DNA of 64,000 nt from Caulifigura coniformis (GTDB lineage: Bacteria; Planctomycetota; Planctomycetia; Planctomycetales; Planctomycetaceae), in contig NZ_CP036271.1 in NCBI RefSeq assembly GCF_007745175.1, forward strand, positions 434,001 through 498,000, given 5' to 3'. How positions within the stretch are numbered: position 1 is the first letter of the stretch; each line of letters opens with the position of its first letter. This document shows, one piece after another, positions 31,447 to 53,982 of this stretch. The notes below the pieces were generated by a model. It made no database searches, was not told where the DNA came from, and worked only from the letters and a program-made list of their open reading frames with translations. A program made the position numbers and the translations under genes.

Positions 31447-32448
31447 TTACCAGCCGAGGACGTGGGCGAAGATCAGCGGGGCGACGATCGTGGCGTCGGA
31501 CTCGATGATGTACTTCGGAGTGTCGACGCCGAGCTTACCCCAGGTGATCTTCTCGTTGGGAACGGCGCCCGAGTAGCTGCCGTAGCTCGTGGTCGAATCG
31601 CTGATCTGGCAGAAGTAACCCCAGAGCGGGATCTTCCGCCGGCCGAGGTCCTGGTGGAGCATCGGGACGACGCAGATCGGGAAGTCGCCGGCGATGCCGC
31701 CGCCGATCTGGAACATGCCGAGCGACGCGTCCTTCGTGGTCTCGGTGTAGAAGTTGGCCAGCCAGGTCATGAACTCAATGCCGGTGCGGACCGTGTGGAC
31801 GTTCTTGATGTCGCCGCGGATCACGGCGGCGGCGTACATGTTGCCGAGGGTCGAGTCTTCCCAGCCGGGCGTGATAATGGGCAGGTTCTTTTCCGCGGCC
31901 GCGACCATCCACGAGTCTTTCGGGTCGATCTGGTAGTGCTTCTTGTACTTGCCGCTGAGGATGACCTTGTAGAAGAACTCGTGGGGGAAGAACCGTTCGC
32001 CTTTCCGGTCGGCGTCGGTCCAGACCTCGAGCATCGCGGTTTCCATCCGCCGCATCGCCTCGCCTTCCGGGATGCAGGTGTCGGTCACGCGGTTCATGTG
32101 CCGCTTGAGGAGCTTTTCCTCGTCCCTGGGCGTCAGGTCGCGGTAGTGCGGGACGCGCTCGTAGAAGTCGTGGGCGACGAGGTTGAAGACGTCTTCCTCA
32201 AGGTTGGCCCCCGTGCAGGAGATGAGGTCGACGTACCCTCGCCGGATCATCTCGGCGAGGGAGAGCCCGAGCTCGGCCGTGCTCATGGCGCCGGCGAGGC
32301 AGAGCATCATCTTGCCGCCGGCATCCAGGTGGGTGCGGTATCCCTTCGCGGCGTCGATGAGGGCGGCGGCGTTGAAGTGGCGATAGTGGTGGTTGATGAA
32401 CTGGGTGACGGGGCCGGCCGAGGAGCTGGCAGCGGATTTCTTGGCCAT
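31447..32448 (-). CDS. Deoxyhypusine synthase family protein
   Basis: Protein of 333 aa. The DHS fold is visible: FNAAALIDAAKGYRTHL, MMLCLAGAMSTAELG (NAD-binding region), CTGANLEEDVFNL, IITPGWEDSTLGN, FQIGGGIAGDFPIC, and the C-terminal ITWGKLGVDTPKY...SDATIVAPL, where the Lys of WGK corresponds to the catalytic Lys that forms the imine in eukaryotic DHS. Bacteria lack eIF5A; bacterial homologues act in polyamine metabolism (homospermidine synthase-like) or are uncharacterised. The true substrate here is open. ATG 32448 starts the conserved region; the longer frame upstream lies in a palindrome-rich leader. Confidence 0.85.
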   Translation of the reverse strand: MAKKSAASSSAGPVTQFINHHYRHFNAAALIDAAKGYRTHLDAGGKMMLCLAGAMSTAELGLSLAEMIRRGYVDLISCTGANLEEDVFNLVAHDFYERVPHYRDLTPRDEEKLLKRHMNRVTDTCIPEGEAMRRMETAMLEVWTDADRKGERFFPHEFFYKVILSGKYKKHYQIDPKDSWMVAAAEKNLPIITPGWEDSTLGNMYAAAVIRGDIKNVHTVRTGIEFMTWLANFYTETTKDASLGMFQIGGGIAGDFPICVVPMLHQDLGRRKIPLWGYFCQISDSTTSYGSYSGAVPNEKITWGKLGVDTPKYIIESDATIVAPLIFAHVLGW

Positions 32449-32496
32449 GATGGACGTTGTGGTGGAACGGTGGTGAAACGGGGCTCGGCAACGATT

Positions 32497-32522
32497 GCAC
32501 TGGCTGCAAGCAGGCCAGTGGC
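32497..32522. repeat. Short intergenic palindrome
   Basis: CACTGGCTGC (32498-32507), AA, then GCAGGCCAGTG (32510-32520) forms an almost perfect stem with one bulged C. It lies just upstream of the DHS-like gene. It shares the CACTGGC/GCCAGTG core with the palindrome at 53983-54001. Confidence 0.5.
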
Positions 32523-32694
32523 ACTCCGGCACTGACTGCAGGGAGACCAGTGGGATCGGGCAACGGAGCGTGCCCCGCGGATGACAAGGGGAACTGGCTG
32601 CGTAGCTTCACGATGACAGGCCGATTTGCCAACCGTAGTAGAGGTTCCGGTTCCTTGTCTGGACGCGAGCGAGCGAGGAGGGCGCGTGGATGGG

Positions 32695-53414: not shown

Positions 53415-53765
53415 TCAATCGACCTTGGCCTGGGCCGCGGGGGCGGGGGTGGGCGTCAGTAGCTTGAGCCCGATGATGCCACCGACGATGGCAGCCACGC
53501 AGAGGAGGCGGCCCGCGGTGGCCGGTTCGTGGAACAGAAAGATTCCCAGGATCACGGCGCCGACGGCTCCGATGCCGGTCCAGATGGCGTAGGCTGTGCC
53601 GAGCGGGAGCGTGCGGACCGCGACGCCCAGCAGGACCATGCTGGCGATCATGGCGATGATCGTCAGCATGGCGGGGACGGGCTTCGAAAGACCGTCACTC
53701 AGTTTGAGCCCGACGGCCCAGCCGATTTCGAGAAGGCCGGCAACGACCAGGATGACCCACGCCAT
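53415..53765 (-). CDS. gdx: SMR-family guanidinium exporter (Gdx/SugE)
   Basis: Protein of 116 aa with four transmembrane helices. It is very close in pattern to E. coli Gdx (SugE): AGLLEIGWAVGLKLSDG carries the membrane-embedded Glu used for proton-coupled exchange, TLPLGTAYAIWTGIGAVGAV is the Gdx-specific signature that separates it from EmrE drug exporters, and GIIGLKLL ends the last helix. It should export guanidinium as a dual-topology dimer. A Pro/Ala tail of about 10 residues is added. A likely guanidine riboswitch lies just upstream, and AGGTG at 53770-53774 is the ribosome binding site. Confidence 0.9.
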   Translation of the reverse strand: MAWVILVVAGLLEIGWAVGLKLSDGLSKPVPAMLTIIAMIASMVLLGVAVRTLPLGTAYAIWTGIGAVGAVILGIFLFHEPATAGRLLCVAAIVGGIIGLKLLTPTPAPAAQAKVD

Positions 53766-53791
53766 GATTCACCTCAGACAGGTGGATGAAG

Positions 53792-53834
53792 CGGGGCCGT
53801 CCCCGGATGAGAGAAGCCGCACGGGTCGTCCCGT
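53792..53834 (-). promoter_or_regulatory. Guanidine-II riboswitch (mini-ykkC motif) in the gdx leader
   Basis: In the minus-strand RNA two short hairpins stand in series. P1 is ACGGG-ACGA-CCCGU (53834-53821) and P2 is CGGGG-ACGG-CCCCG (53805-53792), with a 15-base spacer. Both loops fit the ACGR consensus that defines the guanidine-II riboswitch, and P2 ends about 17 bases before the AGGTG ribosome binding site of gdx. Known members use guanidine binding to expose the ribosome binding site of gdx/sugE or related genes. Motif plus target gene make the call strong despite the small size. Confidence 0.85.
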
Positions 53835-53982
53835 ATGGTTGTGATTGAATTCTAGAGTGAGTTCGACTCAAGTGAAGTGATGAGCTGCATCCAATCGCCC
53901 GGACACAGTCCGGGGACTGGCCTGCGAACGCTCCACATGAGTGACATGCGAAATCGCAGCAGTGGGGGCAGTCATCTGGATT

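Follow-up and report, generated by a model that had tools for sequence, protein, structure and literature searches.

A predicted guanidine-II riboswitch in the leader of the single-copy gdx gene of the planctomycete Caulifigura coniformis

The best explanation of our observations, taken as a whole, is that the 5' leader of the single-copy gdx gene of Caulifigura coniformis contains a riboswitch of the guanidine-II (mini-ykkC) class, a reading that we consider very probably correct on the strength of sequence comparison. The element lies on the minus strand of a 64-kb stretch of the genome, hereafter the window (64,000 nucleotides analysed), where hairpin P1 (ACGGG-ACGA-CCCGU, 53821-53834) is joined by a 15-base linker (53806-53820) to hairpin P2 (CGGGG-ACGG-CCCCG, 53792-53805). 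Twenty-six bases separate P2 from the gdx start codon, and the Shine-Dalgarno sequence GAGGUGA (53769-53775) stands 3 bases 5' of the ATG at 53765. These features bear out the initial annotation, which had described two tandem 5-bp hairpins with ACGA and ACGG loops, a 15-base spacer and a ribosome binding site soon after P2, and they agree with the published definition of guanidine-II, two hairpins with ACGR tetraloops and a linker mostly of at least 13 nt (PMC5486947). The proposal that the host is a planctomycete is likewise upheld by the markers PSCyt1/2, PSD1 and DUF1501 within the window. The leader shares with the class (RF01068) its two G+C-rich ACGA and ACGG hairpins, its 15-base linker and its position just upstream of an exporter's ribosome binding site; its host is a planctomycete, however, whereas the class is described as mostly proteobacterial (PMC12186494). 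It is thus an ordinary, well-supported representative of an established riboswitch class, found in a phylum where that class is little described; indeed, Planctomycetota are not named with guanidine riboswitches in searchable papers.

Assignment to the mini-ykkC class, also part of the initial annotation, is confirmed by the Rfam covariance model Guanidine-II (RF01068), which matches positions 53837-53792 of the minus strand over its full length with 39.7 bits, above the gathering score of 32. This is the single match in the whole 6.76-Mb genome. Both hairpins are evident from the sequence and the Rfam match, and their stems are further supported by covariation. Could such hairpins have arisen by chance in a G+C-rich leader, or represent a plain mRNA-stability or terminator structure? 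Single ACGR hairpins with stems of 5 bp or longer are indeed common in the window, which contains 17, and the model does produce false matches: those in another planctomycete contig (G052:C10; L004, L009 and L010, two of them over the cut-off) were rejected because they fall in a Pro-Gly-Arg-coding repeat. Tandem pairs are another matter: the window has a single instance of two ACGR hairpins, each of 5 bp or longer, spaced by 7-40 bases, namely that in the gdx leader, against a mean of 0.02 in dinucleotide shuffles. The Rfam score exceeds its cut-off, the expected gene lies directly downstream, and no terminator-like site was found. Chance or generic structure is therefore a vanishingly unlikely explanation, and one that is in practice refuted by this gene association together with the covariation described below.

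A guanidine-II element stands directly before gdx in ten other planctomycetes (G053, G051, G002, G005, G347, G196, G144, G422, G389 and G278), and the compensatory changes that the initial annotation proposed as a check were found among relatives. In an alignment of ten planctomycete leaders anchored on the ACGR loops, 95% of cells are paired as opposed to 78.4% after shuffling, and 20 cells carry double changes as opposed to 7.0, a value that none of 500 shuffles reaches; slid registers of the same leaders are only 37-62% paired. The P1 and P2 stems are maintained by compensatory changes among planctomycete relatives. We also considered whether a relative keeps gdx while losing the ACGR loops, a finding that would count against the annotation. 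Formally this is so in the only same-genus genome (G001), whose gdx-like gene lacks ACGR loops. That gene, however, is about 60% identical to the window gene, has neither sdhA nor the ZIP transporter as a neighbour and is not clustered with its window counterpart in the tree; it is therefore probably not the same locus, a judgement call in a poorly resolved tree. Three further gdx leaders (L024, L028 and L040, from G025, G008 and G012) have a good ACGG P2 and a P1 with a 6-base loop, of the form GAGG-CCACGA-CCTC or GAGG-CAACGA-CCTC. They are unmatched by Rfam even at E 2 and may be a variant of guanidine-II. One match below the cut-off (G042) was not accepted. In one of the ten relatives (G144), a group II intron match with 57.5 bits (L134:1412-1488) lies immediately upstream of the guanidine-II element.

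The gene downstream (53415-53765, minus strand) encodes a 116-aa SMR-family protein, a predicted guanidinium exporter; sdhC and sdhA lie on its upstream side, and a gene for a ZIP transporter follows it. It is single-copy, the protein finding only itself in its own genome at E 0.001. The product matches Pfam PF00893 (SMR), and the SugE equivalog model of NCBIfam is by far the best-scoring subtype model, all Qac models being far lower; its 121.7 bits nonetheless fall 4 bits short of the cut-off of 126, so the product is called Gdx-type by its substrate-site residues and not by the model. The nearest solved structure is Gdx-Clo (PDB 6wk5, E 3e-31), which aligns without gaps over residues 1-102 and has every substrate-site residue in common with the C. 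coniformis protein, namely E13, W16, S42, Y59 and W62 (PMC7695847). On these grounds the claim that a gdx/sugE gene lies directly downstream stands. Proteins of the Gdx family export guanidinium in exchange for protons. It is conceivable that the riboswitch acts as proposed and that the main substrate of this Gdx is a different cation, methylguanidine or a small quaternary amine for example, given that methyl- and aminoguanidine are bound by guanidine-II with affinities within fourfold of that for guanidine (PMC5486947) and that substrate promiscuity is possible among SMR transporters (PMC7695847). Against this, the protein has W16, a Gdx-typical tryptophan that Qac proteins replace by glycine or alanine (PMC7695847), so we regard a different principal substrate as very unlikely. 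Guanidinium export is also the likely response to guanidine in this organism, since the genome contains no guanidine-I or guanidine-III element and no full-length match to urea/guanidine carboxylase, only partial matches below the cut-off. The more local statement that no guanidine carboxylase or hydrolase is found among the neighbouring genes holds as well: none of the scanned window genes was recognised as coding for a guanidine enzyme. Elsewhere in the window (31447-32532, minus strand) is a deoxyhypusine synthase-like gene of the homospermidine/bis(guanidino)-azanonane synthase group, all of its matches lying far below the cut-off.

How might the element control gdx? Guanidinium binding and loop kissing are established for the guanidine-II family. 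A sigma-70-like promoter, TTCACT-16-TAGAAT (53849-53876, minus strand), ends 14 bases 5' of P1; one such site was found by a consensus scan, which says nothing of function, against 0.1 expected. The position of this promoter and the lack of a terminator make a translational ON switch likely, in keeping with literature proposals that kissing loops free the Shine-Dalgarno sequence (PMC9094411, PMC5486947). In the modelled fold of the free leader, 53762-53754 (codons 2-4) is the pairing partner of the P2 3' strand, and this pairing encloses a possible CACCU-GUCUG-AGGUG hairpin on the Shine-Dalgarno sequence (53770-53784, minus strand; -5.5 kcal/mol, present in the minimum-energy fold). Consider, then, a cell low in guanidinium. 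The mRNA, probably starting just 5' of P1, would have the 3' strand of P2 engaged with the first gdx codons and its Shine-Dalgarno sequence hidden in the small hairpin, as folding of the C. coniformis leader suggests. With guanidinium bound in the ACGA and ACGG loops, these would kiss and hold P1 and P2 in place, as in other members of the family, the ribosome binding site would become easier to open, and the exporter would be made and would expel guanidinium for protons in the manner of other Gdx proteins.

The folding model gives this scheme qualified support. Once P1 and P2 are fixed, the predicted cost of opening the ribosome binding site falls from 17.6 to 11.7 kcal/mol, a gain equalled by 8% of shuffles; across 44 leaders this gain averages 2.36, as opposed to 0.65 for shuffled sequences. 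At the same time, the modelled aptamer state lies 7.6 kcal/mol above the free ensemble, which would be much for two weakly bound ligands to pay unless folding is kinetic. The OFF-state pairing itself is strong in C. coniformis, where it is unmatched by any foreign start region, and appears peculiar to this leader. As a family-wide OFF state, pairing of the P2 3' strand with the start region found no support: across the 44 leaders, own start regions pair no better than foreign ones, and 3002 of 5000 permutations are as good. We therefore propose it for the C. coniformis leader alone. Also set aside was an anti-Shine-Dalgarno role for the linker, whose UCUCA can pair weakly with UGAGG; own Shine-Dalgarno regions again do no better than foreign ones. 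With non-overlapping segments, the P2 3' strand gives a weak signal against the Shine-Dalgarno region (64/5000), and the segment after P2, compared with that same region, gives 0/5000.

Other planctomycete gdx genes are led instead by guanidine-III (ykkC-III, RF01763), which exceeds its cut-off in 8 of 59 relatives and 13 of 392 genomes of the phylum; the corresponding figure for guanidine-II is 21 of 392, matches before non-gdx genes included. The two classes have unrelated folds, and guanidine-III is absent from C. coniformis, but both control gdx in planctomycetes of the same family and class. Guanidine sensing and export are thereby placed firmly in Planctomycetota, where two unrelated RNA classes serve the same gene. 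In the Gdx protein tree, genes led by guanidine-III form one well-supported clade with a single leaderless exception, and one genus (g5) is split, G005 (L018) having class II and G176 (L171) and G234 (L172) class III, each with a different gdx lineage. The gdx lineages are scattered across host families, so transfer is likely, and it is simplest to suppose that a leader stays with its gene, whether by inheritance or by transfer. One might then ask whether the C. coniformis element is a decayed remnant, brought in with a transferred gdx and no longer regulating, an idea to which the high modelled cost of the aptamer state also lends something. However, the loops and stems of the two hairpins are intact, as is the linker length, and compensatory change among relatives keeps the stems, making a non-functional remnant extremely improbable and a working guanidine-II riboswitch the preferred reading.

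The association of guanidine-II with a second type of transporter is, in our view, more worth following than the window element. Among the 37 genomes sampled from the window's family, guanidine-III is absent from those without gdx, and a single guanidine-II element occurs in them, preceding another exporter: in G019, an element with 35.2 bits (L006:1501-1549) lies before a PACE transporter. The protein matches Pfam BTP with 165 bits, and G019 is the only genome of the window's family with PF05232 over the cut-off. Of 11 related PACE loci examined on alphaproteobacterial plasmids, 7 have tandem ACGR hairpins directly upstream (L189, L190, L191, L195, L196, L198 and L199), six of which exceed the Rfam cut-off while the seventh reaches 31.4 bits; no element precedes the remaining four, three of which lie beside a LysR gene. 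In a PACE tree, a branch with support 87/91 separates these four from the eight genes that have the element. We found no report of guanidine-II before PACE genes in the searchable literature, the supplementary gene tables of the original papers lying outside that search. PACE transporters are known mainly for antiseptic efflux. A joint reading, to which we give roughly an even chance, is that of an exchangeable guanidine-export module in which leader and exporter travel together, the riboswitch class follows the gdx lineage and not the host, and guanidine-II also governs PACE genes in a planctomycete and in Alphaproteobacteria. If guanidine-II does govern them, this PACE group would be a second, unrecognised family of guanidinium exporters, and the association gives the PACE family a testable natural substrate.

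Elsewhere in the phylum, one family (f17) has divergent pairs of guanidine-II elements, mostly 200-400 bases apart (L129, L130, L133, L136, L137, L139, L142, L143, L144 and L151-L154). Behind them lie urea-amidolyase-associated (UAAP1-like), type III glutamine synthetase and creatininase-family genes, and parts of an ABC transporter as assigned by reading the sequences. These loci probably constitute a guanidine assimilation module.
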